From Acidimicrobiales bacterium (GTDB lineage: Bacteria > Actinomycetota > Acidimicrobiia > Acidimicrobiales > Iamiaceae): 64,000 nt of DNA. Under the pieces are notes generated by a model. The model was given only the letters and a program-made list of their open reading frames with translations, did not search any database and was not told the DNA's origin. The position numbers and the translations under genes are program-made. This document shows, one piece after another, positions 17,004-41,099 of this stretch (positions are counted from its first letter, which is position 1; every line of letters starts with the position of its first letter). The stretch is from NCBI GenBank assembly GCA_035547835.1, contig DASZTW010000012.1, positions 62,001 to 126,000 on the forward strand, in the 5' to 3' direction.

Positions 17004-17023
17004 GGGTGGCTCCGGGGAGAAAA

Positions 17024-17041
17024 CTTTACGTCGACGTAAAG
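17024..17041. promoter_or_regulatory. perfect 18-bp palindrome, probable MerR operator
   Basis: CTTTACGTCGACGTAAAG is a perfect inverted repeat ending 21 bp upstream of the exporter start codon. MerR proteins bind such dyads inside the promoter spacer. A degenerate copy (CTTCACGTGCGCGTCAAA, 17053-17070, 12 of 18 matching) lies 29 bp further upstream over the phosphotransferase stop. Confidence 0.7.
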
Positions 17042-17065
17042 CTACCGGAGAACTTCACGTGCGCG

Positions 17066-18436: not shown

Positions 18437-18499
18437 GGTTTGCAGCGTAGGCATGTCGCGAGTTCCGGCGGCGGTGCCCGAAATGGCACACTTTCGCCC

Positions 18500-19996
18500 G
18501 TGGGGACTCGGGGGAGGGACACCAGCGTCGACGCGCCGTGGCCGATGTGGCTGCTCGGGCTCGTCATCATGATCGACCAGGTCGACCAGAACATCGTGCG
18601 TGGCGTGGTGACGCCCCTGCAGAAGGATCCGCGGCTGCACGTCACCGACTTGCAGATCGGCTTGTTGCTGTCGTGCTTCGTGGTCGTCAACGGGCTGATC
18701 ACCGTGCCGGCTGGCTACCTGGCCGACCGTTGGAACCGCAGCCGCACGATCGGCCACACGATCATCGGGTGGTCGGGCCTCACCGCGCTCACCGCCGCGT
18801 CGCCCAACTACGGGGTGCTGCTCGGCGTCCGCAGCGCGCTCGGCTTCGGCCAGGCCATCACCGAACCGTCGGCTGCCAGCCTGCTCGGCGACTTCTACAG
18901 CGCAGAGAAGCGCGGGCTCGCGTTCTCCGTGCAGCAATGCCTGTTCTTCGTCGGGTTCGCGCTGGGCATCGGCCTCGGCGGCATCGTCGGCAACACGCTG
19001 GGTTGGCGCTGGGCCTTCCTGCTGGTCGGCACGCCAGGCGTCGTGATCGCACTGTTCGTCTACCGGCTGCGCGAGCCCAAGCGGGGCGAGTCCGACCGAG
19101 CCCACGTCGGCGCGCACCACCTGCACGACGAGCCTGACGAGCCGCTGTTCGAGGACGGTTTCCGGGCGTTCACCCGCGACATGGTCGGCGGGCTGCGCGC
19201 GGATGCCCGCACGATCCTCGGGATCACCACGATGCGCTACGCGCTCGTGGGCGTGGCGTCGCTGTTGTTCACCATCACCGCGATCGCCGCGGCCATGCCG
19301 CAGTTCTACGAACGCCAGCTCCACGTGAAGACCGGCTCGGCGGAAGCGTTGGTCGCGCTGCTCGTACTGCTCGGCGGCATCCCCGGCGTGCTGCTCGGCG
19401 GCCGGTTCGCCGACCGGTACATGACCAAGATCCGCGGCGCCCGCATGGCCATCCCCGCCTACTGCCTGTTCGTCGGCAATGCCCTGTTCGCGATCAGCTA
19501 CCTGCGGCTGCCGTTCAAGTTCGCGTACCCGCTCGAGATCGTCGGCTTCTTCATCATCTGCATGGCGATCCCCGCCCTGCGCGCGGGGCTCACCGATGCG
19601 GTCCCGGCCAACTTGCGAGGCTCCGGCTTCGGGTTCTTCAACCTCACGTCGGTGATCCTCGGCCAAGGCGTGTCGTCGCTGGTCGTGTTCCCGCTCGCCG
19701 GCGCGTTCGGCGGCAACTACCGCGTGGCGTTCTTGTTGATGAGCCCACCCGTGTTCATCGGTGCGTTCATCTTGTTGCGGGCCCGCGAGCACCTCGACGC
19801 GGACGCCGCCAAGATCTTCGAGGCGATCGTGACGGCCATGCAGGAGCAGCAGGCCCGCGAGGCCGAGCACGAGGCGGCCCGGGTCCACGACCACGCCGCC
19901 GACGGGTCGGACTCGATCGAGGCCGGCCTCGACGCTGGTGTGGGGGCCGGCGGCGGTGACGAGCCCGACTCTGTGGGCACCACGGCGCCGCGCTGA
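18500..19996 (+). CDS. MFS transporter, spinster/GudP-like
   Basis: A 498-residue major-facilitator carrier with 12 predicted helices, starting at a GTG 63 bp from the divergent phosphotransferase. Early motifs are MIDQVDQNIVRGVVTPL, the loop GYLADRWNRSRTIG and the helix-4 region GFGQAITEPSAASLLGDFY, which recall spinster-like lipid/sugar-phosphate carriers. A ~45-residue hydrophilic loop separates the two six-helix halves, and the last ~55 residues form an Ala/Glu/Asp-rich cytoplasmic tail. Its substrate and regulation are not evident. Confidence 0.9.
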   Translation: MGTRGRDTSVDAPWPMWLLGLVIMIDQVDQNIVRGVVTPLQKDPRLHVTDLQIGLLLSCFVVVNGLITVPAGYLADRWNRSRTIGHTIIGWSGLTALTAASPNYGVLLGVRSALGFGQAITEPSAASLLGDFYSAEKRGLAFSVQQCLFFVGFALGIGLGGIVGNTLGWRWAFLLVGTPGVVIALFVYRLREPKRGESDRAHVGAHHLHDEPDEPLFEDGFRAFTRDMVGGLRADARTILGITTMRYALVGVASLLFTITAIAAAMPQFYERQLHVKTGSAEALVALLVLLGGIPGVLLGGRFADRYMTKIRGARMAIPAYCLFVGNALFAISYLRLPFKFAYPLEIVGFFIICMAIPALRAGLTDAVPANLRGSGFGFFNLTSVILGQGVSSLVVFPLAGAFGGNYRVAFLLMSPPVFIGAFILLRAREHLDADAAKIFEAIVTAMQEQQAREAEHEAARVHDHAADGSDSIEAGLDAGVGAGGGDEPDSVGTTAPR

Positions 19997-26001: not shown

Positions 26002-27552
26002 ATGCGGATCATCTACTTCGACATCGACACGCTGCGGCCGGACCACCTCGGCTGCTACGGCTATCACCGCGACACCAGCCCCAACATCGACGCGCTCGCC
26101 GCCGCGGGGACTCGCTTCGACAACGTCTACGCCTCCGACGTGCCGTGCCTGCCGAGTCGCACGGCCTTGATCACCGGCCGGTTCGGCATCCAGACCGGTG
26201 TGGTCAACCACGGTGGTCGGGGCGCCAACCTCGACCTCGCTCCTGAAGGCGCGCAGCGCAGCTTCCTGTCCGAGCTGTCCGTGCAGTCGTGGGCCGCACG
26301 GTTCTTCTGGAAGGGCTACCGGACCGCGTCGTTCTCGAGCTTCCCGATCCGGCACGCGGCCACGTGGTGGACCGTCGGGTTCCAGGAGATGATCGACGCG
26401 TCGCGGGGCATGGGCGGCGAGACGGCAGACCGAGTCGTGCCCGACGTGCTCGGCTGGATCGACCGCCACGGCCGCGAAGACCACTGGTTCTGCCACGTGC
26501 ACCTGTGGGACCCGCACACGCCGTACAACACGCCCCCGGCGTTCGGAAACCCCTTCGAGGGCGACCCGATCCCTGCCTGGTACACGGAGGACGTGCGCGC
26601 GCGGCATTGGGGTCTGCCGGGGCCGCACTCGGCGCAAGAGCCGTTCGGCTTCCGTCCCGATGAGTTCGGTGACGCCGGCGCGCGCCAGCCGATCGACCTT
26701 GCCGACCTCCCGGCCGTGAAGGTGATGTTCGACGGTTACGACGTCGGCATCCGCTACGCGGACGACCACGTCGGGCGCGTGCTGTCGAAGCTCGACGAGG
26801 TCTCTGCCCTCGACGACACGCTCGTGATGGTCGCGTCAGATCATGGCGAGGGGTTCGGCGAGCTCGGTGTGTACGCCGACCACCAAGCGGCCGACGAGGC
26901 CACCGCGCACATCCCGATGATCCTGCGCGGGCCAGGCGTGCCGGTGGGCGTCGACCGCTCGCTCCACTACCACCTCGACGTGGGCGCCACCGTGACCGAG
27001 CTCGCCGGTGCGACCCCGCCGGCGGTGTGGGACGGCACGTCGTTCGCGGCGGCCCTGCGCGACGGGCGCGAGGAGGGCCGCGAGTTCCTGGTGACCTCGC
27101 AAGGGGCGTGGTCGTGCCAGCGGGGATTGCGCACCGGCGACCACCTGTACCTCCGCACGATGCACAGCGGCTACCACGACTGGGCCGACGAGATGCTGTT
27201 CGACCTCTCGACCGACCCCCACGAACAGCACGACTTGGCGGGGGAGCGCCCCGAGCTCGTGATGGCGGCGTCGCAGCAGCTCGACCGATGGATCACCGAG
27301 CAGCTCGCAGCAAGCGTCGACCACGTCGACCCGCTCGTGATCGTGATGGCCGAGGGCGGTCCCTTTCACACCCGGGGGAGGCTGCGTGCCTACCTCGAAC
27401 GGCTGCGCACCACCGGCCGCGGCCAATGGGCTGACCTGTTGGCCGAGCGTTACGCCGCCGATCTCGACGTGCGGCCCGCGATCTCCGACGCGCTCATCGA
27501 AGCGTTCGCCAGCCTCAACCCGAAGCTCGCCGGCAAGCTGAAGCCCGCATGA
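26002..27552 (+). CDS. type I sulfatase (formylglycine family), cytoplasmic
   Basis: A 516-residue sulfatase of the alkaline-phosphatase superfamily that removes sulfate esters. The N-terminal strand MRIIYFDIDTLRPDHLGCYG carries the calcium-binding aspartates, and VPCLPSRTALITGR contains Cys49 in C-L-P-S-R, a perfect formylglycine motif. Further metal-site motifs are HLWDPHTPYNTPP and VASDHGEGFGELG. There is no signal peptide: the fold starts at residue 2. It has its own regulated promoter and converges with the TetR-GH1 pair, whose partners downstream include two other sulfatases and a hexosaminidase, so a sulfated sugar is a reasonable substrate. Confidence 0.92.
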   Translation: MRIIYFDIDTLRPDHLGCYGYHRDTSPNIDALAAAGTRFDNVYASDVPCLPSRTALITGRFGIQTGVVNHGGRGANLDLAPEGAQRSFLSELSVQSWAARFFWKGYRTASFSSFPIRHAATWWTVGFQEMIDASRGMGGETADRVVPDVLGWIDRHGREDHWFCHVHLWDPHTPYNTPPAFGNPFEGDPIPAWYTEDVRARHWGLPGPHSAQEPFGFRPDEFGDAGARQPIDLADLPAVKVMFDGYDVGIRYADDHVGRVLSKLDEVSALDDTLVMVASDHGEGFGELGVYADHQAADEATAHIPMILRGPGVPVGVDRSLHYHLDVGATVTELAGATPPAVWDGTSFAAALRDGREEGREFLVTSQGAWSCQRGLRTGDHLYLRTMHSGYHDWADEMLFDLSTDPHEQHDLAGERPELVMAASQQLDRWITEQLAASVDHVDPLVIVMAEGGPFHTRGRLRAYLERLRTTGRGQWADLLAERYAADLDVRPAISDALIEAFASLNPKLAGKLKPA

Positions 27553-27640: not shown

Positions 27641-28279
27641 TCAGTCGCGCTCCAACTCGCGGCTGAGGCGATCGATGTAGGCGTCGACGGTCGCGACCAG
27701 GTCGACGTTGGCGGGGTCGACGAGCCACTGGATCTCCAGCCCCATGAGCACCGCGAGGATCTCCGCGGCCAGCAGGTCGACGTCGATCGTGGCATCGATG
27801 ACGCCGCGGCGTTGCTCGGCGAGCAAGGTCTCGCGCGCCACGGCACGACCCGCCGCATAGCGCTCGGTGAAGAAGTCGTGGAGCGGGTCGTCGCGATCGA
27901 GGTTCTCCGCGCCGAGCACCACGTACAGCCGCGTGAACACGGCCGTCTCCACGTTGTGGCGCGCGATCTCCCTGATCGTGTCGAGCGTGAACTCCTCGAT
28001 CGACGGCAGGTCCTGCCCTTCGGCACGCTGGCGTTCCTCCATGACTTCCTGGAGCAGCCGTTCCTTGGTGCCGAAGTAGTAGAGGAGCCCGGGCGCGGTC
28101 ATGCCCACCTTGTCGGCCAAGGCTGCGATCCCCGTGCCCCGGTAGCCGTTGGCGGCGAACAGCTCCACCGCGCTGTCGAGGATCTGCTGGCGGCGGGCAT
28201 CGCCGCGCGGTTGGCGGCTGCGGTCGTCGGCTCCGGCCGTCGCCCGGCGCCGCGTCTTGCGTGGGCGGTTCGTGGTCAT
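27641..28279 (-). CDS. TetR family regulator of the sulfated-glycan locus
   Basis: A 212-residue TetR protein. The basic N-terminal arm (MTTNRPRKTRRRA) precedes a standard helix-turn-helix: RRQQILDSAVELFAANGYRG, IAALADKVGMTAPGLLYYF and GTKERLLQEVM. The C-terminal domain would bind the inducer, which cannot be identified. The ATG at 28279 overlaps the stop of the GH1 gene (ATGA), so both are on one transcript starting in the 29479-29710 region. The twin inverted repeats there are the best candidates for its operators, giving a feedback loop over both arms of the locus. Confidence 0.9.
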   Translation of the reverse strand: MTTNRPRKTRRRATAGADDRSRQPRGDARRQQILDSAVELFAANGYRGTGIAALADKVGMTAPGLLYYFGTKERLLQEVMEERQRAEGQDLPSIEEFTLDTIREIARHNVETAVFTRLYVVLGAENLDRDDPLHDFFTERYAAGRAVARETLLAEQRRGVIDATIDVDLLAAEILAVLMGLEIQWLVDPANVDLVATVDAYIDRLSRELERD

Positions 28280-29478
28280 GAGCTCGCCGCTGCGGTGAGG
28301 CGGCGAGCTCGGGCCACCTGGCCGAGCCACCGGGCCGACGGCTTCGCGGTGCGGTCGAACGTGTTCGGATCCCAGCTGACCAGCCCGAACGTGGGTCGGT
28401 ACGAGCCCCACTCGTAGTTGTCGAGCAAGCTCCAGTGCAGGTAGCCGCGCACGTCGGCACCGTCGGCCATGGCGGCGAGCAGGCTGTCGAGCGCGCCTTG
28501 GGTGTAGGCGATGCGACGGTCATCGTCGTCGGTGGCGATGCCGTTCTCGGTGATCAGGATCGGCACGTCGCCGACCACGTCGCGGGCTTGGCGCACCGCG
28601 TCGCCGGCTGCGGGCGGGTAGTACTCCCAGCCGGTGAGCGTCCGCTCGTCCTCAGGGTCGTCGCGAATCTCGCCGTCTGGCCCGAACACCGTGCGGGTGT
28701 ACGACTGCACGCCCACGAAGTCGTCGTCGCGGCTCACCTCGAGGAAGGGGTCGTTCACCGTTGCGGAGTACCTGGCCGCGAGCTGCTCGCCGCCCGGCCG
28801 CGCGTGCACCACCTGGTTGGCGATCGACCAACCGACTTTCATGTCGGGGTGATCGCGGTGGAGCACGTCGCGTGCCGCGCGATGCGCCGCGATGGTGGCG
28901 TCGCGCATGGCGGGGTCCGGTGGCGGGAGGGGTCCGACGAACCCTTCGAGGTCGTCGGAAGAGCCGCCGGTGATGAAGCGGCCCATGATCGCCACCATGT
29001 TCGGTTCGTTGATGGTGACCACCCAGCGCACGCCGTCGAGGATCGGTCGCAGGGCGTGCACGTAGGCAGCGAAGCGGTCGGCCACGGTGTCGGCGCCCCA
29101 ACCCCCCTCACCCGTCAGCCAATGCGGGCTCGTGAAGTGGTGCAACGTGATCACGGGTTCGATGCCGCGCGCGCGGCACCCGTCGACGATGCGGCCGTAG
29201 TGCAGGAGCTCGGCTCTGGAGAACACGCCTGGCTCCGGCTCGATCCGCGCCCACTCGATGCTGAAGCGGTACGCGTTGAAGCCCAGGTCCGCGACCAGAT
29301 CGAGGTCGTCGCGCCAGCGGTGGTAGCTGTCGGCGGCGTCACCGCTGGGCTCCTTCATCGGGCTGTTCGGCTGGTGCTCGATGCGCCAGAAGTCGCTGTT
29401 GACGTTGCCGCCTTCGATCTGGTGCGCGGCGGTCGACGCGCCGAACAGGAACCCTGCTGGGAACTGGTCGCTCGTCAT
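28276..29478 (-). CDS. glycoside hydrolase family 1 beta-glycosidase, cytoplasmic
   Basis: A 400-residue (beta/alpha)8 retaining glycosidase. The N-terminal signature FPAGFLFGASTAAHQIEG, the acid/base glutamate in TINEPN (~Glu158) and the nucleophile in ILITENG (~Glu311) are all present, with YRFSIEWARIEPEPG and the aglycone-site HWSLLDNYEWGSYRPTFGLV. It is about 50 residues shorter than many GH1 enzymes. No signal peptide. GH1 enzymes cleave beta-glucosides, galactosides or related beta-linked sugars. GGGGGAT before the ATG is its ribosome-binding site. Position in the sulfatase/GH20 locus suggests action on an imported, desulfated oligosaccharide. Confidence 0.93.
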   Translation of the reverse strand: MTSDQFPAGFLFGASTAAHQIEGGNVNSDFWRIEHQPNSPMKEPSGDAADSYHRWRDDLDLVADLGFNAYRFSIEWARIEPEPGVFSRAELLHYGRIVDGCRARGIEPVITLHHFTSPHWLTGEGGWGADTVADRFAAYVHALRPILDGVRWVVTINEPNMVAIMGRFITGGSSDDLEGFVGPLPPPDPAMRDATIAAHRAARDVLHRDHPDMKVGWSIANQVVHARPGGEQLAARYSATVNDPFLEVSRDDDFVGVQSYTRTVFGPDGEIRDDPEDERTLTGWEYYPPAAGDAVRQARDVVGDVPILITENGIATDDDDRRIAYTQGALDSLLAAMADGADVRGYLHWSLLDNYEWGSYRPTFGLVSWDPNTFDRTAKPSARWLGQVARARRLTAAASS

Positions 29479-29524
29479 GAGGCATCCCCCGGTGTCGACG
29501 TGTGCGCCTTGCTCGGGACAACGA

Positions 29525-29544
29525 ATTCTTACGAGTGTAAGAAT
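29525..29544. promoter_or_regulatory. inverted-repeat operator, copy 1
   Basis: ATTCTTACGAGTGTAAGAAT has perfect 8-bp arms around GAGT. It is part of a 26-bp block (29521-29546) of which 22 bases recur in copy 2. It lies 46 bp before the GH1 start codon, so it is placed to repress the leftward transcript. Confidence 0.8.
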
Positions 29545-29644: not shown

Positions 29645-29664
29645 ATTCTTATAGATGTAAGAAT
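29645..29664. promoter_or_regulatory. inverted-repeat operator, copy 2
   Basis: ATTCTTATAGATGTAAGAAT is the second copy, exactly 120 bp from the first and in the same orientation, 46 bp before the binding-protein start codon. TATAGAT inside it could be a -10 element, so bound repressor would block RNA polymerase. Confidence 0.8.
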
Positions 29665-29710: not shown

Positions 29711-31045
29711 ATGCACGGTTCACGATCCAGGATCGGGGGCGTGGTCGCCGTCGCCCTGGCGGTCACGCTGATGGCTGGCTGCTCGGTGTCGAGCGACAAG
29801 AACGCCACGAGCAGCGACAGCGGGTCCGCTACCGCCGTCGCCGCGCGGCACTTCGCCACGACGCCCAAGCAGGGTGTCACCAAGGACACCGTCACGCTCG
29901 GCGTGGCGATGATCGACTTCGAGAAGGTGAAGGAGCAGTACGGCGTCGATCTCGAAGGCGCGCTGCCAGACGGGATCTTCGACGCACTGGCCGCTTCGGT
30001 GAACAACAAGGGCGGCATCCACGGTCGCAAAGTCGTGCTGAAGAAGCGCCTCTTCATGCCGATCGGCACCGAAGACAGCGAGAAGAGCTGCCGCGAGCTC
30101 ACCGAGGACGACAAGGTCTTCGCCGTGATGGGCGCGTACCTGGGCGACAACGCGCTGTGCGTCACCGAAACCCACGCCATCCCGTACTTCAGCGCGTGGG
30201 GCCTGAACCCCGAGCGTCAGCAGCGCTCGAAGGCCCCGTACCTCACGACCGGCAATGGCGACGCCAACAACGCGTCGGTCGCGATGAAGAAGCTGATCGA
30301 CAACGGCACGCTCGAGCACAAGAAGGTCGCGGTGTTCTGGGACTCGGACACCCCCGACTCGGTGATCAACACGAACCTGTTGCCCACGCTGGAAGGGGGC
30401 GGTGTCAAGGTGGTCTCGAAGGCCAAGCTGCCCCAGACCACCGATGCCGTACAGGCCGGTAGCGACTTCGACCGCATCATGCAGCGCTTCCAAGCCGACG
30501 GTGCCGACACGGTGGTGTTCTGGTCGGGCATGGGTGTGGTGGTTCCCGGGTTGCAGCGGCTCACCAGCTACCACCCCAAGATCATCTTCACCAACGGTCA
30601 GGCGATCGGCGCCGACGCGCTCACGAACTTCGGTCTCACCAAGGCCTCCTCGCTCGACGGGGCGATCCTCGTGGTGTCGTCGGGCGACTCGGCAACGCTC
30701 GAGCGTGACCCCGGCTACCTGGTCTGCATCAAGGCGATCAACGACAACTCCAACTTGAACGTGAAGCCCAGCGACACGGAATCGAAGAAGGAGAACCCGA
30801 GCTCCAAGGGCTACGGGCAGCTCAGCAACGTGTGCCAGATCTGGCAGCTGACGGTCAAAGTGCTCACCGCGGCGGGGCCCAACCTCTCATCGCAGTCGAT
30901 CGTCGACGGGCTCGCCAAGCTCAAGTCGTTCTCGGTCACTGCCATCCCGCACGCCTCGCTCAGCCCAACCAAGTGGACGACCGGGGCGCCGATGCGGACG
31001 TGGCACTACGACCACGCGAGCACCTCGTTCGTGCTCGACAAGTGA
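29711..31045 (+). CDS. Liv-type ABC substrate-binding lipoprotein
   Basis: A 444-residue lipoprotein of the type I periplasmic-binding fold (LivJ/urea/amide group). The start at ATG 29711 gives a normal lipoprotein signal peptide (MHGSRSRIGGVVAVALAVTL) with lipobox MAGC, so the protein is anchored outside the membrane. The fold starts at VTLGVAMIDFEKVKEQYGVD and has NNKGGIHGRKVVLKK, the usual hinge-side motif of this family. Although the family name refers to branched-chain amino acids, members bind many small polar molecules, and here it precedes a glycan-hydrolase operon. It is the ligand receptor for the two transporter fusion proteins that follow at 9 and 4 bp spacing. Confidence 0.9.
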   Translation: MHGSRSRIGGVVAVALAVTLMAGCSVSSDKNATSSDSGSATAVAARHFATTPKQGVTKDTVTLGVAMIDFEKVKEQYGVDLEGALPDGIFDALAASVNNKGGIHGRKVVLKKRLFMPIGTEDSEKSCRELTEDDKVFAVMGAYLGDNALCVTETHAIPYFSAWGLNPERQQRSKAPYLTTGNGDANNASVAMKKLIDNGTLEHKKVAVFWDSDTPDSVINTNLLPTLEGGGVKVVSKAKLPQTTDAVQAGSDFDRIMQRFQADGADTVVFWSGMGVVVPGLQRLTSYHPKIIFTNGQAIGADALTNFGLTKASSLDGAILVVSSGDSATLERDPGYLVCIKAINDNSNLNVKPSDTESKKENPSSKGYGQLSNVCQIWQLTVKVLTAAGPNLSSQSIVDGLAKLKSFSVTAIPHASLSPTKWTTGAPMRTWHYDHASTSFVLDK

Positions 31046-31054
31046 TCGGCTGAG

Positions 31055-33241
31055 ATGGACGACGCGAGCGGGCTCTCGACCCTGACCCACGGCCTGCTCG
31101 ACGCCGAGGACGAGCGTCTCGGGTCAGCAGGTGAGGTCGACAGGGACATCGACGAGTCCGTCCTGCCGGGAGTCGGGGAGCAGGAGCGCTCGCTGTGGGC
31201 CGGGCTCGCCGCCGGTGGCGGGGCGTTCACGTTCGTCGTCTTGGTGCTGATGAACAGCCTCGACCAGCTCGAGGCCGCGGGCATGGCCGTGCTCGGCCCC
31301 GACATCGGCAAGTCGCTGGGCGTCAGCGAGGGCGTGATCGTGTTCGTCACGTCGGCGTCGGCCGCGTTCGTGGTACTCGGCGTGGTGCCGATGGCCTGGC
31401 TCGCCGACCGGGTCCGTCGGTCCCCGCTGGTGGGCATCTGCGGATTGGTCTTCAGTGCCATGGCCGCGCTGTCCGGCGCGGCGGTCAACGCGTTCATGCT
31501 GTTCTGGACGCGCTTCGGTGTGGGCGTGTCGCAAGCGCACACGATCCCGGTGCACTCGGCGATCCTCGCCGACGCCTACCCGATCGGCATCCGCGGCCGC
31601 ATGGCGTCGTTCAACGGCACGGTCGGTCGTATCGCCGGCGCCGCCAGCCCGGTGCTGGTCGGCGGCATCGCGGCCCTGTTCGGCGGCGCGGCCGAAGGCG
31701 GATGGCGATGGTCGTTCATCTTGCTGGCGATCCCCGTGGCCGCCGTGTCGTTGCTGGCGTTCAAGATGAAAGAACCGGTGCGGGGCCGGTGGGAACGCGA
31801 ATCGGTGATCGGGGGCGCGCCCGCCGCCGACGTCGAGGTGCCGATCTCGATCGAGATGGCGTTCGCCCGCCTCAACCAGATCAAGACGCTGCGCACCTTG
31901 GCGTTGGCGTTCGCCGCCATCGGGTTCCAGCTGTTCCCGATGGTCTCGCTCACCAACTTCTTCTTGCGCGACAACTACGGGCTCGACGCGTTCCATCGCG
32001 GCTTGGTCGCGTCGTGCGGCGGTGCGCTGGTGATCTTCGTGCTGCCGTTCACCGGCAAGCGGTTCGACGCGCTGTACCGCGTGAGCCCGCCGCGGGCGAT
32101 GCGGATCCTGGCCCTGTTGATCTTGCCGGCCGCCTTGCTCACGCCGCTGCAGTTCAACATGCCCAATGCCGTGGCCTTCACGGTCGTGATGGCACCCGGC
32201 ACGGTGCTCACGGCAACCGCGTTCGCCATGGTGGCCCCGATCGTGCAAGGCGTGATCCCGTACCGGTTGCGCTCACTCGGCATCGCGTACGCGGCCATCT
32301 ACATCTTCTTGTTCGGCGCGGTCGGGGGCTCGCTGATCGGCTCGGCACTGGCCTCGTCACTCGGCGACGGTCCCGCGATCATGATCTGCGCCATCCCGTC
32401 GGCCGTCGTGGCCACGTTGCTGTTGCTCCGCGGTTCGTGGTCGATCGACGCCGACTTGCAGATGATCGTGGCCGACATCCGCGACGAGCAGGCGGAGCGC
32501 GAGCGTCAGCTCGCCGACCCGGAGACGATCCCGGCCCTGGCGCTGTCGGACATCGATTTCAGCTACGGCAACGTGCAAGTGCTGTTCGGCGTCGACTTGC
32601 AGGTCGCGAGAGGCGAGACGCTCGCCCTGCTCGGCACCAACGGCGCCGGCAAGTCGACCATCTTGCGCGTGGTGGCGGGCCTGGGCACGCCGTCGGCCGG
32701 CGCGGTGCGCCTCAACGGCCGCACGATCACGTTCACGTCGCCCGAGCAACGCATCGCGATGGGCATCCAACTGCTCCCGGGTGGCAAGGGCGTGTTCCCG
32801 TCGCTGAGCGTGGCCGAGAACCTCGAAGTGGCGTCCTACGTGCTCGACCGGCCGGTGCGTGCGGCGCGCGTCGAGCGCGTGTGGGAGCTGTTCCCCGACT
32901 TGCGCGCGCACGCCAAGCAGGGCGCCGGCACCCTGTCGGGTGGCCAGCAGCAGCAGCTGGCCCTCGCCCGGGTGCTGCTCCACGACCCCGAACTGCTGCT
33001 CATCGACGAGCTGTCGCTCGGCCTCGCTCCTGCGGTGGTCGAGGACCTGCTCGGCGTCATCGAGCGTCTCAAGGGGTCGGGCCAGACGATGGTGATCGTG
33101 GAGCAGTCGCTGAACATCGCGTTGCAAGTAGCGGACCGCGCCGTGTTCCTCGAGAAGGGCGCGGTGCGTTTCGACGGCGACGCGCGCGAGCTGGCCGCGC
33201 GCGACGACCTGGCCCGCGCGGTGTTCCTCGGAGGCCGGTGA
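31055..33241 (+). CDS. MFS permease fused to a LivF-type ABC ATPase
   Basis: A 728-residue fusion. Residues ~48-460 are a 12-helix major-facilitator permease (GGAFTFVVLVLMNSLDQLE, loop AWLADRVRRSPLVG, GVGVSQAHTIPVHSAILAD). Residues ~490-728 are a full ABC ATPase: Walker A LGTNGAGKST, Q-loop GIQLLPGGKGVFPSL, signature LSGGQQQQLALARVLL, Walker B LLLIDELSLGLAP and switch IVEQS. The ABC part is LivF-like. No frameshift joins them; the linker is a charged helix (VADIRDEQAERERQLADPE). Together with the next protein it completes a Liv importer. Whether the MFS half transports, senses or merely anchors is unknown. Confidence 0.92.
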   Translation: MDDASGLSTLTHGLLDAEDERLGSAGEVDRDIDESVLPGVGEQERSLWAGLAAGGGAFTFVVLVLMNSLDQLEAAGMAVLGPDIGKSLGVSEGVIVFVTSASAAFVVLGVVPMAWLADRVRRSPLVGICGLVFSAMAALSGAAVNAFMLFWTRFGVGVSQAHTIPVHSAILADAYPIGIRGRMASFNGTVGRIAGAASPVLVGGIAALFGGAAEGGWRWSFILLAIPVAAVSLLAFKMKEPVRGRWERESVIGGAPAADVEVPISIEMAFARLNQIKTLRTLALAFAAIGFQLFPMVSLTNFFLRDNYGLDAFHRGLVASCGGALVIFVLPFTGKRFDALYRVSPPRAMRILALLILPAALLTPLQFNMPNAVAFTVVMAPGTVLTATAFAMVAPIVQGVIPYRLRSLGIAYAAIYIFLFGAVGGSLIGSALASSLGDGPAIMICAIPSAVVATLLLLRGSWSIDADLQMIVADIRDEQAERERQLADPETIPALALSDIDFSYGNVQVLFGVDLQVARGETLALLGTNGAGKSTILRVVAGLGTPSAGAVRLNGRTITFTSPEQRIAMGIQLLPGGKGVFPSLSVAENLEVASYVLDRPVRAARVERVWELFPDLRAHAKQGAGTLSGGQQQQLALARVLLHDPELLLIDELSLGLAPAVVEDLLGVIERLKGSGQTMVIVEQSLNIALQVADRAVFLEKGAVRFDGDARELAARDDLARAVFLGGR

Positions 33242-33245
33242 ACCC

Positions 33246-36152
33246 GTGCTGGCGGCGATCGCCCCGACGCAGGTGCTGGCCGACGGCCTGATCAACGGCC
33301 TCGTGTACGGCCTGGTGGGTATGGGCGTGGTGCTCGTGTACCGCTCGACGAGAGTCATCAACTTCGCGGTGGGCGCGATGGGCCTGCCCGGCGCCGCGCT
33401 GGTGATGCTGCTCGGCGTCCAGTACCACTTCCCGTACTGGTTGTCGGTGGTGGTCGCGCTGCTCGCCGGCACGGCGTTCGCACTCGCGGCGGAGCTGATC
33501 GTGATACGGCGGTTGTTCCACGCGCCGCGCGTCATCTTGTTGGTGGCCACCATCGGGCTGGCCCAGCTCGCCCTGGCGCTCACGATGGCGCTCCCCGACA
33601 TCACCGAGCTGCACGCGGCATACCCCACCGCGTGGGGTCGGTCGCTCCACCTCGGCAGCGTCGAGCTGTCGGGCCCCGACCTCATGACGCTGGTCACCGT
33701 GCCGTTGGTGGCCGGCGCCCTCAGCTGGCTCATGGCGCGCACCCGGTTCGGCCGCTCGGTGGCCGCGTCGGCCGACAACCCCGACCTGTCGCGCATGTCG
33801 GGCATCAACCCCAAACTCGTGTCGAGCGCCGTGTGGGCGATCGCGGGCCTGATCTCGACCGTGTCGCTGATCTTGATCGCCGGGCGAACCGGCCAAGTCA
33901 CCCAAGTCGCGACGCTCGGGCCGGCCACTCTGACGCGGGGTCTGATCGTGGCGGTCTTGGCGGGCATGGCGTCGTTCTCGCGCTCGCTGCTCGCCGGGAT
34001 CGCGGTCGGCCTGGTGGAAGCGGTCGTGCAGTTCCACGCAGTGACCGACCCCGGGCGCTTCGAGTCGTGGCTGCTGCTGGCCGTGCTCGTCGCGGTGTTC
34101 TGGCAGGCGCGCCGCCAGGCAGCCGACACGGGCGCCGTGTTCTCGTTCGCGCCTCGCTCCAAACCGATCCCGATGGCGATCCGCGACCGCTGGTGGGTGC
34201 GGTACCACGGCCGCATCTTGTTCATGGTGGCCTTGGCGATCGGTGTCGCCGCGCCCCTGATCGCGACGGCGCCCACGCGTTCGTACCTGTACGCGTCGAT
34301 CCTGTGCTTCGCGCTGGTGGCGTTGTCGGTCTCGGTCATCACCGGCTGGTCGGGCCAGCTGTCGCTGGGGCAGATGGCGTTCGCCGGCGTGGCGGCGCTC
34401 GGCACGGCCACGCTCGTGCGCGGCGCGACGTACCACATCGGTCTGCCCGGCGGGCAGGTGCTGAAGATCCAAGTACCGCACTTGTCGATGCCGGTCGCGG
34501 TGTTGATCATGACCCTGGTCACTGCCGCGGTGGCCACCCTCATCGGCGTCGGCGCCTTGCGCATCCGCGGCTTGCTGCTCGGCGTCTCGACGTTCGTGTT
34601 CGCGTATGCCGCGCAGCAGGACCTGTTCCACTTCGCCGTGTTCACTGGCGGGTTGCAGCCTCCGATCCGCGCGCCGCGCGGGACGTTGTTCAGCCTCGAC
34701 CTCACCGAGCAGCGCACCTTCTACTGGGTCGTGCTGGGCGTCTTCGCGGTGGTGATGTCGGTGGTGGCGCGGCTGCGTCGCCGCGGACCTGGTCGCGCCT
34801 TGGTGGCGGTGCGCGACAACCAGGCCACGGCCTCGGGGTACACCGTCAACCCCACCCGCACGAAGCTCGCCGGCTTCGCGGTGTCGGGGGCGATCGCTGC
34901 GCTCGGCGGCGCGTTGCTCGGCCTGCTCAGCCAGAACATCAACACCAACCAGCTCTTCGTGGTCGGCGACTCGCTCGACGTGGTGGCGATCGCGGTGATC
35001 GGCGGGCTCGGGTCGGTGGCGGGGCCGCTCCTCGGGGCGCTGTGGGTCAAGGGTCTTCCCGCGTTCTTCCCCGACAACGACCTGGTGCCCCTGTTCAGCT
35101 CGAGCATCGGCCTGCTGTTGCTGTTGCTGTACTTCCCCGGCGGCCTGGTGCAGATCGGCTACTGGGCCCGCGACGCCGTGTTCGCGTGGGCGGCCAAGCG
35201 TGCTCCCGAAGTCGAGCGCGTTCGCGCACCCGCGGTGCCGACGCGCCGATCGCCCCGGCTGGCGGCCGGTGACGCAAGTGACGCGGCTGGCGCACCTGGT
35301 GCACCGGGCGAGCGCGGGGAAGGGGAAGCGGCCGAGGCGACCGCCGCCCTGGCGGCGAACGAGATCAAGGTGCACTTCGGCGGGGTGCGGGCAGTCGACG
35401 GCGCGTCGATCACGGTGCGACGCGGAGAAGTGGTCGGGCTGATCGGCACCAACGGCGCGGGGAAGTCGACGCTGCTCAACGCGGTCGGCGGCTACGTGCG
35501 CGCCGAGGGCGAGGTGTGGGTGCACGGCACCCGCGTGGACGGCATGGCACCGCACCGCCGGGCTCGTCTTGGTTTGGGGCGCACCTTCCAAGCCGCCAAC
35601 CTGTTCCCCGAGCTCACCGTGCGCGACACCGTGATGGTCGCCCTGGAAGCCCGCAGCCGCACGAGCATGTTGGCCACCGCGTTCGCGTACCCGCCGGCCG
35701 GTGCCGCGGAGCGCCGCAAGGCCGCCGAAGCCGCCGAGCTGATCGACTTCCTCGGGCTCGGTCGCTACGCGGACTCATTCGTCTCGGACCTGTCGACCGG
35801 TACGCGCCGGATCGTCGAGCTGGCCGGCGTGCTCGCCCTCGATCCCGATGTGCTGTGCCTCGACGAGCCGACTGCGGGCGTGGCGCAGCGCGAGACGGAG
35901 GCCTTCGGGCCATTGCTGTTGGCCATCCGGCGCGAGCTCGGGGCGTCGCTGCTGATCGTCGAGCACGACATGCCGCTGATCATGTCGATGTCGGACCGGG
36001 TGTACTGCCTCGAAGCCGGCCGTGTCATCGCCGAAGGTCCACCGGCGCGCGTGCGCGAGGATCCGCGGGTGATCGCCAGCTACCTCGGCACCGACGCGCG
36101 TGCGATCGACCGCAGCGATGCCGCTCGACCGCAGACCGCAGGCACCCGATGA
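33246..36152 (+). CDS. LivH-LivM-LivG triple fusion of a branched-chain-type ABC importer
   Basis: A 968-residue protein joining both permeases and one ATPase. Residues ~1-290 are LivH-like (GLINGLVYGLVGMGVVLVYR, RVINFAVGAMG, GLIVAVLAGMASF). Residues ~310-640 are LivM-like (LSVITGWSGQLSLGQ-type motif, GALRIRGLLLGVSTFVFAYA, IAVIGGLGSVAGPLLGALW). After a ~60-residue Ala/Pro/Gly-rich linker, residues ~700-945 are LivG-like: Walker A GTNGAGKST, GLGRTFQAANLFPELTV, signature LSTGTRRIVELAGVLA, Walker B VLCLDEPTAGVA and IVEHD. GTG start four bases after the previous stop. With the MFS-LivF fusion it gives two permeases and two ATPases in two polypeptides. Confidence 0.93.
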   Translation: MLAAIAPTQVLADGLINGLVYGLVGMGVVLVYRSTRVINFAVGAMGLPGAALVMLLGVQYHFPYWLSVVVALLAGTAFALAAELIVIRRLFHAPRVILLVATIGLAQLALALTMALPDITELHAAYPTAWGRSLHLGSVELSGPDLMTLVTVPLVAGALSWLMARTRFGRSVAASADNPDLSRMSGINPKLVSSAVWAIAGLISTVSLILIAGRTGQVTQVATLGPATLTRGLIVAVLAGMASFSRSLLAGIAVGLVEAVVQFHAVTDPGRFESWLLLAVLVAVFWQARRQAADTGAVFSFAPRSKPIPMAIRDRWWVRYHGRILFMVALAIGVAAPLIATAPTRSYLYASILCFALVALSVSVITGWSGQLSLGQMAFAGVAALGTATLVRGATYHIGLPGGQVLKIQVPHLSMPVAVLIMTLVTAAVATLIGVGALRIRGLLLGVSTFVFAYAAQQDLFHFAVFTGGLQPPIRAPRGTLFSLDLTEQRTFYWVVLGVFAVVMSVVARLRRRGPGRALVAVRDNQATASGYTVNPTRTKLAGFAVSGAIAALGGALLGLLSQNINTNQLFVVGDSLDVVAIAVIGGLGSVAGPLLGALWVKGLPAFFPDNDLVPLFSSSIGLLLLLLYFPGGLVQIGYWARDAVFAWAAKRAPEVERVRAPAVPTRRSPRLAAGDASDAAGAPGAPGERGEGEAAEATAALAANEIKVHFGGVRAVDGASITVRRGEVVGLIGTNGAGKSTLLNAVGGYVRAEGEVWVHGTRVDGMAPHRRARLGLGRTFQAANLFPELTVRDTVMVALEARSRTSMLATAFAYPPAGAAERRKAAEAAELIDFLGLGRYADSFVSDLSTGTRRIVELAGVLALDPDVLCLDEPTAGVAQRETEAFGPLLLAIRRELGASLLIVEHDMPLIMSMSDRVYCLEAGRVIAEGPPARVREDPRVIASYLGTDARAIDRSDAARPQTAGTR

Positions 36153-36213: not shown

Positions 36214-38001
36214 ATGCACGCCGACGACTTGTTGCTCGTTCCCCGCCCGCGCTCGATCGAGTTGCTCGACGGCGGCGCACCGGCGGGCGGCACGAGCTCG
36301 TTCCAACAGGACCGCGATCTCGAAGCCGAGGGCTACACCATCGACGCCGGGCCGGGCGGGGTGGCGGTGCGCCACGGCTCCCGTGCCCGGCGCCACGCGG
36401 TGGCACTGCTCGAGCAGTTGCGTGCCCAGTGCGACGGCGCCGTGCCGTGCTGTCATGTGGTCGACGGTCCTGCCATCGCGGTGCGCGGCTACATGCTCGA
36501 CGTGAGCCGCGACCGAGTGCCCACCCGCGACACGCTCAGCCGGCTGGTCGAGTTGTTGGCGTTGGCCCGCTACAACCACTTCGAGCTGTACGTGGAGCAC
36601 CCGTTCGAGTTCGCGGGGCACGAGGTGGTGTGGAAGGACGCTTCGCCGCTGACCGGCGACGACCTCGAGTGGCTCGACCACCTCTGCGCCGAGCACGGCA
36701 TCGACCTGGTGGTCAACCAGAACACGTTCGGTCACATGGGCCGATGGCTGGCACACGACGAGTACCGCTGGCGCGCGGAGTGCCCCGACGGGTTCGAGAT
36801 CGTCGACGGGGTGGCGATGCCGCCGTCGCTGCTCGCGCCGACACCCGACAACGCCGAGTTCGCCCTGGGCCTGGTCCGCCAGCAGCTCGCGCACGTGCGC
36901 AGCCGCCAGGTCAACATCGGCTGCGACGAGACGTTCGAGCTCGGGCAGGGGTACAGCGCGCAGGCCGTGGCCGAACGTGGCAAAGGTGCGGTGTACGGCG
37001 AGCACCTCATGCGCCTCGCCGAGCCGCTGATCGCCGACGGCCTCCACGTGTTGTTCTGGGGCGACATCGCCGGCCGCCACCCCGAGGTCCTCGCCGCCTT
37101 GCCGGCCGACTCGATGACCGCGCTGGTGTGGCAGTACGAGGCGCCATCTGACCGCGACCACGCCGGGCCCCCGGCATCGCTCGCCGAGATCTTCGACCGC
37201 CTCGACATGCATCTCCCGAGCCCTGCGGGTTTCGTGGAAGGGGTGCGACCGTTCGCCGACGCGGGCTTCCCGTTCTGGGTGTGCCCGGGCACCTCGTCGT
37301 GGAACTCGATCGTGGGGCGCATCGACAACGCCAAGGCCAACCTGGTCGACGCAGCGACGATCGGCGTTGCCCGCGGCGCGGGCGGGCTGCTCGTCACCGA
37401 CTGGGGCGACAACGGGCACTTCCAACCACCGTCGGTCAGCTTCGGGCCGTTGGTGTACGGCGGCGCGCTCGCTTGGGATCCCCGGGCCAACGTCGACCTC
37501 GACCTGGCAACGGTGCTCGATCGGTACGTGTTCGCCGACGAAGCGGGCGTGCTCGGCGCCGCGCTCGACCGGCTCGGCCGCATGTGGGCCCAGACCGGTC
37601 AGAAGGGGTCGAACGGGAGCCCGCTGCTCGCGGCGCTCTGCCCGTCGCAGGTCCACTTCGTGTCCGGCGAGCCCGACGCCGCCAAAGTCGGCGCAGTGGC
37701 CGACGACATCGACGAGTTGCTCGCTCAGCTCGACCAGGCCGCGCCCGCATGCGCCGATGGCGAACTCGTCGTGCAGGAGCTCGCGGTGGCGGCCCGCATG
37801 GCACGCCACGGCGCCTGGCGCCTTCTCGCGAAAGCCGGAGGCCCGGCCCGCTCCAACGCGATGCTTGCGGCCGACCTCGACGACCTGATCGCCGACTACG
37901 AACAGGCGTGGCTCGCACGGAGCCGGCCCGGTGGGCTCGCCGACAGCCGTGCCCACCTCGAAGCCACCCGAGCGCAGTACGACCGCAGCGCCCCGCGCTG
38001 A
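36214..38001 (+). CDS. glycoside hydrolase family 20 beta-N-acetylhexosaminidase-like enzyme, cytoplasmic
   Basis: A 595-residue protein with the GH20 layout: an N-terminal alpha/beta domain (VPRPRSIELLDGG, residues ~1-90) and a (beta/alpha)8 barrel starting at IAVRGYMLDVSRDRVPT. The catalytic pair is Asp238-Glu239 in NIGCDETFELGQG, where GH20 enzymes have GxDE; they use the substrate acetamido group for catalysis. VLFWGDIAGRHPEV supplies the usual Trp. No signal peptide, strong GGGGGGAC ribosome-binding site. Expected substrate: terminal GlcNAc or GalNAc, possibly sulfated. It follows the transporter and precedes two sulfatases. Confidence 0.85.
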   Translation: MHADDLLLVPRPRSIELLDGGAPAGGTSSFQQDRDLEAEGYTIDAGPGGVAVRHGSRARRHAVALLEQLRAQCDGAVPCCHVVDGPAIAVRGYMLDVSRDRVPTRDTLSRLVELLALARYNHFELYVEHPFEFAGHEVVWKDASPLTGDDLEWLDHLCAEHGIDLVVNQNTFGHMGRWLAHDEYRWRAECPDGFEIVDGVAMPPSLLAPTPDNAEFALGLVRQQLAHVRSRQVNIGCDETFELGQGYSAQAVAERGKGAVYGEHLMRLAEPLIADGLHVLFWGDIAGRHPEVLAALPADSMTALVWQYEAPSDRDHAGPPASLAEIFDRLDMHLPSPAGFVEGVRPFADAGFPFWVCPGTSSWNSIVGRIDNAKANLVDAATIGVARGAGGLLVTDWGDNGHFQPPSVSFGPLVYGGALAWDPRANVDLDLATVLDRYVFADEAGVLGAALDRLGRMWAQTGQKGSNGSPLLAALCPSQVHFVSGEPDAAKVGAVADDIDELLAQLDQAAPACADGELVVQELAVAARMARHGAWRLLAKAGGPARSNAMLAADLDDLIADYEQAWLARSRPGGLADSRAHLEATRAQYDRSAPR

Positions 38002-38020: not shown

Positions 38021-39550
38021 ATGTCCGAACCGGCCCAAGCCGCGCCAGCGATGCCGCGCAACGTGGTGGTGGTGCTGCTCGACAGCCTGAACCGCCATCT
38101 GGTTGGCCCGTACGGTGCCACCGAGTTCGACACGCCGAACCTCGACCGTCTCGCGGCACGGTCGCTGCGCTTCACCCGCCACTACACGGGGTCGTTGCCG
38201 TGCATGCCCGCTCGGCACGACCTGCTCGTGGGCGCGCTCGACTTCCTCTGGCGACCTTGGGGGTCGGTGGAGATCTGGGAGGACGCGATCACGTACGAGC
38301 TGCGCCGCAGCGGCGTCACGTCGATGCTGGTGTCGGACCACCCGCACCTGTTCGAGACGGGCGGCGAGAACTACCACACCGACTTCTCGGCGTGGGACTA
38401 CGTGCGCGGCCACGAAGGCGACCCCTGGCGCACCTGTCCCGACCCGTCGTTCGTGGGTGCACCGGTGTCGCCGACCGGGTTCCGTCACCCTTACGACGAC
38501 TCGCGGACGTGGTTCCGCAGCGAGGACGACTTCCCGGGCCCCCGCACCATGGCCACCGCAGCCGCCTGGCTCGAGACCGAGGCCCCGCACGCGGATCGCT
38601 ACTTCCTGCTCATCGACGAGTTCGACCCCCACGAGCCGTTCGACACCCCGGAGCGGTGGGCGACCCGCTACGACGACAGCATCGAGCCGCGGATCATCTG
38701 GCCGCCGTACGTGACCGACGCCCTGGCCGAAGGTCGCGTCACACCCGAGGACGGCCGCCGCATCCGAGCCGCGTACGGCGCCAAGCTGTCGATGATCGAC
38801 CACCATCTCGGCCGCATCCTCGACCAACTCGACCGTGACGGCGCGTGGGGCGACACGGCGGTGGTGCTGTGCACCGACCACGGCCACTACCTCGGCGAGC
38901 ACGACGCGTTCGGTAAGCCGGGGCTTCCGCTGTACGAGACGATGAGCCACATCCCGCTGCTGGTGGCCTGGCCGGGCGCGGCACCCCGCGACGTCGACGC
39001 CCTCACCACGACCGTCGACATCTTCGCCACGTTGTGCGACGTGTTCGGCGTGGTACCCCAGCACCGGACCCACGGCCGCTCGCTCGTGCCGCTGCTCACC
39101 GGCGAGGCCACCGCCGTGCGCGACTGGGCGCTGATGGGCGTGTGGGGCCGGCAGGTGCACGTGACCGATGGACGTCGCAAGTACGCGCGGGCGGCGAACG
39201 AGGAGAACCGGCCCCTGTCGATGTGGTCGAACCGCTGGTCGACCATGCCCGTGCACGCCTTCCCCGAGTTCCGACTGCTGCCGCGTCCCGACCGGCGAGC
39301 GGTGCTCGACTTCATGCCCGGCTCCGACGTGCCGGTGATCCGTCAGCCGTACGCGCCCGGCGACCTGGTGCCCATGTGGGCGTCGGGCACTCCCGGCCAC
39401 TCCCACGTGTGGAACGTCGACGACGACCCCGCCGAGGAGCACGATCTCGCTGGCACGTCGGTCGAGCGCGAGTTGGAGGAGCTGTTGCGCACCGCCCTCG
39501 ACGACGTCGACGCGCCGCACGACCAGCTCGAGCGGTTGGGGCTGGCATGA
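38021..39550 (+). CDS. type I sulfatase with CMPAR motif, cytoplasmic
   Basis: A 509-residue sulfatase. AAAGGAG lies six bases before ATG 38021. The N-terminal strand NVVVVLLDSLNRHLVGPYG holds the first metal aspartate; Cys61 is in SLPCMPARHDLLVG, which obeys the C-x-P-x-R formylglycine rule. DEFDPHEPFDTP and CTDHGHYLGEHDAFGKPG supply metal and sulfate ligands. No signal peptide. It lies 19 bp behind the hexosaminidase gene, so co-expression is very likely. It probably removes sulfate from sugar residues of the imported fragment; which position is not deducible. Confidence 0.92.
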   Translation: MSEPAQAAPAMPRNVVVVLLDSLNRHLVGPYGATEFDTPNLDRLAARSLRFTRHYTGSLPCMPARHDLLVGALDFLWRPWGSVEIWEDAITYELRRSGVTSMLVSDHPHLFETGGENYHTDFSAWDYVRGHEGDPWRTCPDPSFVGAPVSPTGFRHPYDDSRTWFRSEDDFPGPRTMATAAAWLETEAPHADRYFLLIDEFDPHEPFDTPERWATRYDDSIEPRIIWPPYVTDALAEGRVTPEDGRRIRAAYGAKLSMIDHHLGRILDQLDRDGAWGDTAVVLCTDHGHYLGEHDAFGKPGLPLYETMSHIPLLVAWPGAAPRDVDALTTTVDIFATLCDVFGVVPQHRTHGRSLVPLLTGEATAVRDWALMGVWGRQVHVTDGRRKYARAANEENRPLSMWSNRWSTMPVHAFPEFRLLPRPDRRAVLDFMPGSDVPVIRQPYAPGDLVPMWASGTPGHSHVWNVDDDPAEEHDLAGTSVERELEELLRTALDDVDAPHDQLERLGLA

Positions 39551-39602: not shown

Positions 39603-41099
39603 GTGAGCCGACCGAACATCGTGGTGTTCATCCCCGACCAGCTGCGCTACGACGCGCTCGGTTGCTCGGGCAATCCGGTGGCGAGCACGCCGAACATCGA
39701 CGCGCTCGCGGCCCGGGGCACGCGCTTCGCCAACGCGTTCGGGCAGCACCCGTTCTGCTCGCAGAGCCGGGTGTCGTTCCTCACCGGTTGGTACCCGCAT
39801 GTACACGGGCACCGCACCCTCACGCAGCTGATCAAGCCGTGGCACCCCGACTCGCTCGGGCTGCTGAAGGCGTCGGGCTACCACGTGGCCCACGCAGGGA
39901 TCCGTGGCGACACGTACGCGCCGGGCGGCACCAAGGCGTCGACGTCGCGGTTCGGCTGGACCGAGATGCCCGAGGCCCTGTACTCACGGAGCCCGTACGG
40001 CCCAGATCACCGCTTCGGTCGGGCCTTCTACCACGGGCAGCGCCCCGAGCCGCTGGTCGACATGGACGAGGCCACGGTCCGCACCGCCCTGGCATGGCTG
40101 GCCGAGGGCCTGCCCGAGCCGTGGGTGCTGTACGTGCCGCTGGTCTTCCCGCACCCGCCGTTCGAGGTGGCCGACCCGTGGTACTCGTTGCACGACCGCG
40201 CGGATGTGCCGTTGCCGGTCGCGCCGCCCACGTCGACCGACGGCGAACCGGTGTTCAAGCGCGAGATCCGCGCCCGTTACGGCCTCGACCGGCTCGACGA
40301 AGCAGAGTGGCGGGAGCTGGTGGCCACGTACTACGGCATGGTCTCGCGCGTCGACGACATGTTGGGCCGCGTGCTGGGCGGGGTGGCGGCGGCGGGAGCA
40401 GAGGACCGTACCGCGGTGTTGTTCTTCCCCGACCACGGCGAGTACCTCGGCGATCACGGCCTGATCGAGAAGTGGGTCTCCGGTCAGGACGAGTGCTTGT
40501 TGCACAACCCGCTGATCGTGCACGTGCCTGGTGGGCGCGAGGGGCAGGTCGCCGAGGGCATGGCGGAGCTGATCGACGTGGCGCCGACCCTGCTCGAGCT
40601 CGGCGAAGTCGACGTGCCGCACCGCCAGTTCGGTCGCAGCCTCGTGCACCTCGCCCATGACGCCACGGCTGACCACCGCGACATCGCGTGCAGCGACGGG
40701 GGGCTCGCGCTCGAGGATGCGTCGAGCTCCGGGCCGCAGCCGTTCCCGTACGACCTCAAGCACGGGCTGGAGCGCGAGGTGCCGCTCACCGCAGGAAAGG
40801 TGTCCACGTTGCGGACCGACCGGTGGACGTACGTGCACCGCTCCCACGAAGGCCCCGAGCTGTACGACCGCATCGCCGACCCGCACGAGACGCGCAACCT
40901 CGCGGGCGACGACGCCCACGCCGCGGTCGCCGACGAGCTGCGCGGTCGGTTGCTGTCGTGGTTGGTCGAGACGGCCGACGTGATCGGGCCGACCGACCCC
41001 CGCAACGACCTCGACGGCGCGCAGCTCCCGGACGCGGCCTGGGAGTTGTTCGCCCGTCTGCTGCCCAAGGAGTACTTCTCGAAGGCCGACGACGACTGA
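39603..41099 (+). CDS. type I sulfatase with unusual CSQSR motif, cytoplasmic
   Basis: A 498-residue sulfatase-fold hydrolase starting at GTG 39603 after GGAGGACGACC. Metal strand: NIVVFIPDQLRYDALGCSG. The active-site segment is HPFCSQSRVSFLTGWYPHVH, with Cys52 in C-S-Q-S-R, so the proline of the C-x-P-x-R formylglycine motif is Gln. FPDHGEYLGDHGLIEKWVSG is the second metal motif. Length, overall motifs and position behind another sulfatase support a real sulfatase. Whether formylglycine is formed at this cysteine is uncertain; phosphonate or phosphate-ester hydrolysis is an alternative. Last gene of the run from 29711. Confidence 0.9.
   Translation: MSRPNIVVFIPDQLRYDALGCSGNPVASTPNIDALAARGTRFANAFGQHPFCSQSRVSFLTGWYPHVHGHRTLTQLIKPWHPDSLGLLKASGYHVAHAGIRGDTYAPGGTKASTSRFGWTEMPEALYSRSPYGPDHRFGRAFYHGQRPEPLVDMDEATVRTALAWLAEGLPEPWVLYVPLVFPHPPFEVADPWYSLHDRADVPLPVAPPTSTDGEPVFKREIRARYGLDRLDEAEWRELVATYYGMVSRVDDMLGRVLGGVAAAGAEDRTAVLFFPDHGEYLGDHGLIEKWVSGQDECLLHNPLIVHVPGGREGQVAEGMAELIDVAPTLLELGEVDVPHRQFGRSLVHLAHDATADHRDIACSDGGLALEDASSSGPQPFPYDLKHGLEREVPLTAGKVSTLRTDRWTYVHRSHEGPELYDRIADPHETRNLAGDDAHAAVADELRGRLLSWLVETADVIGPTDPRNDLDGAQLPDAAWELFARLLPKEYFSKADDD

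Follow-up and report, generated by a model that had tools for sequence, protein, structure and literature searches.

The closest described system is the Liv/HAAT importer (LivFGHM with LivJ/K), the core of which comprises a lipoprotein, a membrane path made by LivH and LivM, and the ATP-hydrolyzing subunits LivF and LivG. The locus analysed here has the same parts in one operon, namely a Peripla_BP_6 lipoprotein, two BPD_transp_2 domains, a LivG with a BCA_ABC_TP_C tail and a LivF, but it differs in that LivF carries an MFS carrier at its N terminus and that LivH, LivM and LivG form one chain. As energy classes, MFS carriers and ABC transporters are kept apart, and the conserved chain described here joins both. 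ArsAB and LplT-Aas are other cases of a secondary carrier combined with an ATPase or of an MFS protein fused to an enzyme, but neither is a Liv system: ArsA falls outside the ABC ATPases, and Aas is an acyltransferase/synthetase. No relevant description of MFS-ABC, MFS-LivF or Liv-MFS fusions was found in the open-licence full-text literature, although proteins of the MFS-LivF type already lie in public genomes. On the carrier side, the nearest described proteins are the Spinster family (HnSpns, Spns1/2) and the ACS-type MFS member DgoT, a D-galactonate:H+ symporter. The intracellular proton switch of HnSpns is Glu129 (PMC9440201), and in DgoT both Asp46 and Glu133 are required for active transport (PMC6532931).

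The locus lies in a 64,000-nucleotide stretch of an Acidimicrobiales genome (3.7 Mb, 97% complete, 22 contigs), and this whole stretch is referred to as the window; the features are collected in Table 1. A first-pass annotation had described a 12-helix MFS permease joined in frame to a complete LivF ATPase, followed 4 bp downstream by LivH, LivM and LivG in one 968-residue chain, and both proteins were recovered as such from the open reading frames and by the Pfam and NCBIfam domain searches. In the MFS-LivF protein, MFS_1 covers residues 75-424 (E 1.8e-27) and ABC_tran covers residues 512-652 (E 2.3e-27), and the LivF part has its LSGGQ signature intact along with both Walker motifs, A (GTNGAGKST) and B (LLLIDE). 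The LivHMG chain contains BPD_transp_2 twice, ABC_tran and BCA_ABC_TP_C (6.1e-11), and its translated LivG part has a variant signature, LSTGTRR, with the Walker motifs and the switch histidine retained. In the NCBIfam comparison, residues 495-727 of MFS-LivF aligned with LivF/UrtE and residues 701-949 of LivHMG with LivG, with best scores of about 172-201 bits against equivalog cut-offs of 286-441 for LivF, LivG and Urt, a test of substrate-level identity and not of ABC type, and in this respect too the system differs from Liv/HAAT. The lipoprotein that the first-pass annotation had placed in front of the carrier is present and matches Peripla_BP_6, but its start most likely lies not at the open reading frame start, 29570, but at the downstream position given in Table 1 (MHGSRSR...); its stop codon is separated from the MFS-LivF start by 9 bp.

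Table 1. Features of the MFS-LivF locus and its surroundings (positions in the window).
Feature	Position	Strand	Basis or remarks
Sulfatase, CLPSR motif, separate unit upstream	26002..27552	+	6.2e-34
TetR-type regulator (TetR_N, TetR_C_6)	27641..28411	-	Pfam
GH1 family glycosidase, divergent from importer operon	28276..29481	-	GH1 1.1e-66; start inferred
Palindromic operator-like site ATTCTTACGAGTGTAAGAAT	29525..29544	.	Genome-wide site search
Second operator-like site ATTCTTATAGATGTAAGAAT	29645..29664	.	Genome-wide site search
Liv-type solute-binding lipoprotein, Peripla_BP_6, lipobox LMAGC	29711..31045	+	GGGGGG before the ATG; start picked by eye
MFS-LivF fusion protein, 728 aa	31055..33241	+	Pfam, NCBIfam; AF2 model pLDDT 84.8, pTM 0.82
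MFS carrier domain, residues 45-460, 12 TM, Spinster/DgoT-like fold	31187..32434	+	Motif A D118-R119-R122, TM1 D70/E73, TM4 R153
Predicted continuous helix 438-487, from TM12 through the cytosol to LivF	32366..32515	+	AF2 model, alignment
LivF ATPase domain, residues 495-727	32537..33235	+	Pfam, NCBIfam; intact LSGGQ, Walker A and Walker B
LivH-LivM-LivG fusion protein, 968 aa, GTG start	33246..36152	+	Pfam, NCBIfam
LivH subdomain of LivHMG	~33261-34115	+
LivM subdomain of LivHMG	~34191-35195	+
LivG subdomain of LivHMG	~35340-36101	+
GH20-like protein, next gene after LivHMG	36214..38001	+	Glyco_hydro_20 22.6 bits, cut-off 22.3
Sulfatase, CMPAR motif	38021..39550	+	Sulfatase 5.9e-31; start with AAAGGAG site
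Sulfatase, CSQSR motif	39603..41099	+	1.7e-36

To evaluate the distribution of the fusion, window-type MFS sequences were used as queries in a scan of about 85,000 species genomes, which yielded 187 relatives. MFS-LivF was in one frame in 80 of the 80 best of these 187, and the next reading frame encoded LivH(-LivM-LivG) in every best-80 locus whose contig reaches far enough; one contig (L182) ends inside MFS-LivF, and in one locus (L153) LivHMG is split over two reading frames. A near full-length match was found in at least 35 of the 61 nearest relatives searched, and the fusion was present in all 40 inspected loci from relatives. These 40 loci revealed two arrangements: layout A, that of the window, in which MFS-LivF is followed by LivH-LivM-LivG, and layout B, in which LivH-LivM is followed by MFS-LivF-LivG; the source genome has one locus of each. 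Because the scan used window-type sequences, a profile of both layouts being too divergent, the best-80 set leans to layout A. Fusion-bearing organisms include the isolates Embleya scabrispora, Yinghuangia, Parafrankia, Catenulispora rubra and Streptomyces nymphaeiformis, as well as many Acidimicrobiia. In a phylum-wide sample of 396 genomes, strong matches were found in about 19, across several classes, the direct sampling of the fusion being confined to Actinomycetota.

The possibility that an assembly or frame artefact produced the fusion in the window is negligible: we found no point in its support, and it is ruled out by the 80 independent loci, those of the Embleya, Yinghuangia, Parafrankia, Catenulispora and Streptomyces isolates among them, in which the parts are likewise fused. 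A frame error between the MFS and ATPase parts was one of two findings that the first-pass annotation had named as speaking against its claim, and no such error is seen in the 80 best or the 40 inspected loci. The other was the occurrence of separate, unlinked parts at homologous loci in close relatives; two unfused members (L084 and L086) were found, but on the MFS tree they are nested within the fused clade and far from the window's own subclade, in which every copy found is fused.

A single group on that tree, with a support of 99, holds 76 fused copies together with 2 unfused ones. The unfused L084, which belongs to the source genome, and L086 nest within the layout B part, an arrangement that fits an apparent secondary loss of LivF, and because these nested copies keep the carrier motifs, the MFS half can exist without LivF. 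L084 (L084:8837-10780; source genome C15:83253-84482) is a stand-alone MFS in which the TM1 acids, motif A and the TM4 arginine are kept, and there are no Liv genes within about 9 kb. The MFS of L095 (L095:7787-13274, genome G245), a locus with MFS-LivF and LivHMG, groups with unfused MFS proteins outside the main group on a long branch, and may stem from another event, independent of the first, in which an MFS became fused to LivF. The LivF tree was poorly resolved, with support too weak for counting fusion events.

Not every part of the operon is unusual. The source genome has two systems without MFS in the order J, LivF, LivH-LivM-LivG (L204 and L205) and one in the order LivH-LivM, LivF-LivG (L206), and these resemble the fused systems in gene order and fusions apart from the MFS, which their LivF lacks. 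Because of the former two, the LivHMG fusion must be regarded as ordinary in this genome, and it is rejected as the odd part of the locus, although the first-pass annotation had listed it beside the MFS-LivF fusion and set both against the separate subunits of known Liv importers. Because such systems exist, a Liv core of this kind can also do without the MFS. In layouts A and B alike, the MFS precedes LivF as an added module, and the novelty lies in this module; the departure from the textbook Liv scheme that had been claimed for an MFS tethered to LivF is real. Since the parts all come from known families and what is unusual is their combination, we regard the system as a variant of the Liv importer rather than a new kind.

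The MFS half was folded alone because a Foldseek search with the full-length protein was swamped by ABC ATPases. The AF2 model (pLDDT 88.8) has a 12-TM MFS fold, and the Foldseek matches included DgoT, Spns1, Spns2 and sialin, the top match being DgoT (6e9n, TM-score 0.73/0.79), with TM-scores of up to 0.79/0.84 for Spns1. By HMM alignment, the best sequence match of the MFS profile to a solved structure was the bacterial Spinster HnSpns (6e8j, E 1.1e-14), with R153 on Arg122, E73 on Asp41 and K160 on Glu129. In an alignment of 157 fused rows (132 of class A, corresponding to layout A, and 25 of class B, corresponding to layout B), the motif A (DRxxR) that lies between TM2 and TM3 has D118 in 126/132 class A and 25/25 class B rows and R122 in all. 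The near-invariant positions are D118, R119 and R122 of motif A, R153 in TM4, the TM4-5 motif and WR in TM6, and an acidic D70 or E73 occurs together with R153 in 146 of the 157 rows. Motif A, the TM1 acid and the Arg122-equivalent are thus shared with Spinster. The median dN/dS over 29 independent pairs was 0.067 for the MFS half and 0.086 for LivF, and the low value rules out a vestigial MFS half. Taken together, the survey, fold and selection data point to a maintained carrier.

The fused proteins differ from Spinster, aside from the attached ABC ATPase, at the TM4 proton switch. The glutamate equivalent to HnSpns Glu129 is missing in nearly all of the 157 fused rows, position 160 being K in 118, Q in 15, R in 8 and E in 2, with Q in the window copy. 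The same position distinguishes them from DgoT, as we take its Glu133 to be the counterpart of HnSpns Glu129. Residue E71 in TM1 and K/R160 covary, with 6 independent pairs changing the same way and 0 the other way (median p 0.03), the pairs within layout A alone being too few for significance; the window copy, with Q71 and Q160, is without the usual E71/K160 pair. Unfused actinobacterial relatives likewise lack the TM4 glutamate, with Q in its place in the other MFS of the window and in L094; therefore, its loss predates or is independent of the fusion, and it was not upheld as a mark of the fusion. That other MFS (window 16931-19993; MFS_1 1.6e-44, OATP 7.3e-12) is a distant unfused relative. 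Given the missing glutamate, the carrier may be driven in a way unlike its relatives, or may have turned into a regulator.

The genes around the operon suggest that the cargo is not an amino acid, as in Liv/HAAT, but a glycoside or sulfated compound. The operon is flanked by GH1 and GH20-like proteins and sulfatases (Table 1), and no signal peptide was seen by eye in the GH1, the GH20-like protein or the three sulfatases of the window. Among 111 neighbour proteins of about 28 other window-type loci there were 7 of GH3, 3 of GH2, 2 of GH78, 3 sulfatases and 3 of LacI, families that are absent from the 25 commonest among 86 layout B neighbours, a control that was drawn from a different genome sample and covers those 25 families only. 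From this neighbourhood, the cargo is likely a glycoside, sulfated in the source genome, that is imported whole and degraded inside the cell. The divergent gap upstream of the lipoprotein gene contains two copies of a 20-bp palindrome, for which the shuffled expectation in the window was 0.01, and a genome-wide search that allowed up to 3 mismatches gave no further copy. Because the sites occur nowhere else, they fit a TetR operator specific to the importer locus, and the position of the TetR-type regulator makes it the probable ligand of these two putative operators. It further appears that many actinobacterial proteins whose annotation reflects a single half, either as a branched-chain amino acid ATPase or as an MFS, belong to a glycoside-importing family.

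We propose that the lipoprotein would bind a sulfated or glycosylated compound, for which LivH-LivM would make the path while the LivF:LivG pair spends ATP. A complete Spinster/DgoT-like MFS carrier precedes LivF in the chain, linked to its N terminus by one predicted continuous helix, so that one MFS carrier would stand beside each importer. The MFS half would move a second solute of the pathway, such as a released sugar, an aglycone or some other product of hydrolysis, or would give the compound itself a second route; that it transports, its cargo and direction, and any coupling to ATP are what we infer. The fusion would ensure 1:1 co-assembly and could let the nucleotide state of LivF influence the MFS half. 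We give somewhat better than even chances to this reading, in which an ABC importer of glycosides is assembled together with an MFS carrier that serves the same pathway with a second solute; it draws on sequence-level evidence, namely the fusion, its conservation and selection, the carrier motifs and the glycoside/sulfatase context. The first-pass annotation had left three ideas side by side, an ATP-gated carrier, a sensor and a two-route importer, and the survey, fold and selection data favour the MFS as a carrier in its own right, so that the system would be a two-route unit; gating and sensing stay as rivals.

As a sensor, the MFS half would be a transceptor that detects a compound outside or inside the cell and, by way of LivF, restrains or permits the activity of the Liv importer. 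The loss of the canonical proton switch, the tight linkage to one subunit and the ability of the importer core to exist without an MFS, as in the MFS-less systems, are all consistent with this, but a sensor need not retain carrier charge pairs, whereas nearly all copies have preserved motif A and the TM1/TM4 pair, the E71 and K160 positions covary, and the unfused copies are conserved as well. We consider a transceptor rather unlikely.

An ATP-gated or ATP-energised MFS, in which LivF motion transmitted through the TM12-linker helix replaces the lost proton switch while the same ATPase powers the Liv importer, is likewise judged unlikely. In the model of the full chain, the helix comprising residues 438-487 is predicted to be unbroken from TM12 to LivF, and the pTM of 0.82 for the two domains is compatible with such transmission; D467 in this linker is invariant in 157/157 aligned fused rows, E478 is conserved in class A, and the switch glutamate is replaced in nearly all fusions. 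However, the same glutamate is changed in unfused relatives, which unties its loss from the fusion, the class B linkers share D467 yet lack the acidic stretch, and both unfused members persist without LivF. A purely structural role as anchor or scaffold, in which the MFS half would do no more than keep LivF at the membrane and aid assembly, appears distinctly improbable. Its attachment to LivF only would suit such a role, and the fusion of LivH-LivM-LivG is in line with a wider tendency of these genomes to tether subunits, but the MFS has a dN/dS no higher than that of the ATPase, its conserved sites are charges of the gating and pore type, and a scaffold requires neither. A fusion that is under strong selection and occurs in several Actinomycetota classes and in cultured isolates makes the gating or driving of an MFS fold by an ATPase testable.

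Several further observations were made in the inspected loci. Three MFS-LivF loci (L119, L130 and L155) come from bins that bear the names Bifidobacterium breve, Acidobacteria and Terriglobia, respectively, and probably lie on mis-binned actinobacterial contigs. In a number of layout B systems (L044, L063-L065, L068, L071, L073, L074, L076, L077, L080, L092 and L097), a protein of about 565 aa comes next; 2 of the 3 that were tested had no Pfam match and 1 matched Peripla_BP_6, and this protein likely represents a divergent binding-protein family. In Parafrankia sp. EUN1f (L117:4127-9052), a GH3 beta-glucosidase-type enzyme is followed by MFS-LivF in one uninterrupted frame, possibly a triple fusion of glycosidase, carrier and ATPase, or possibly two in-frame genes without an intervening stop codon.
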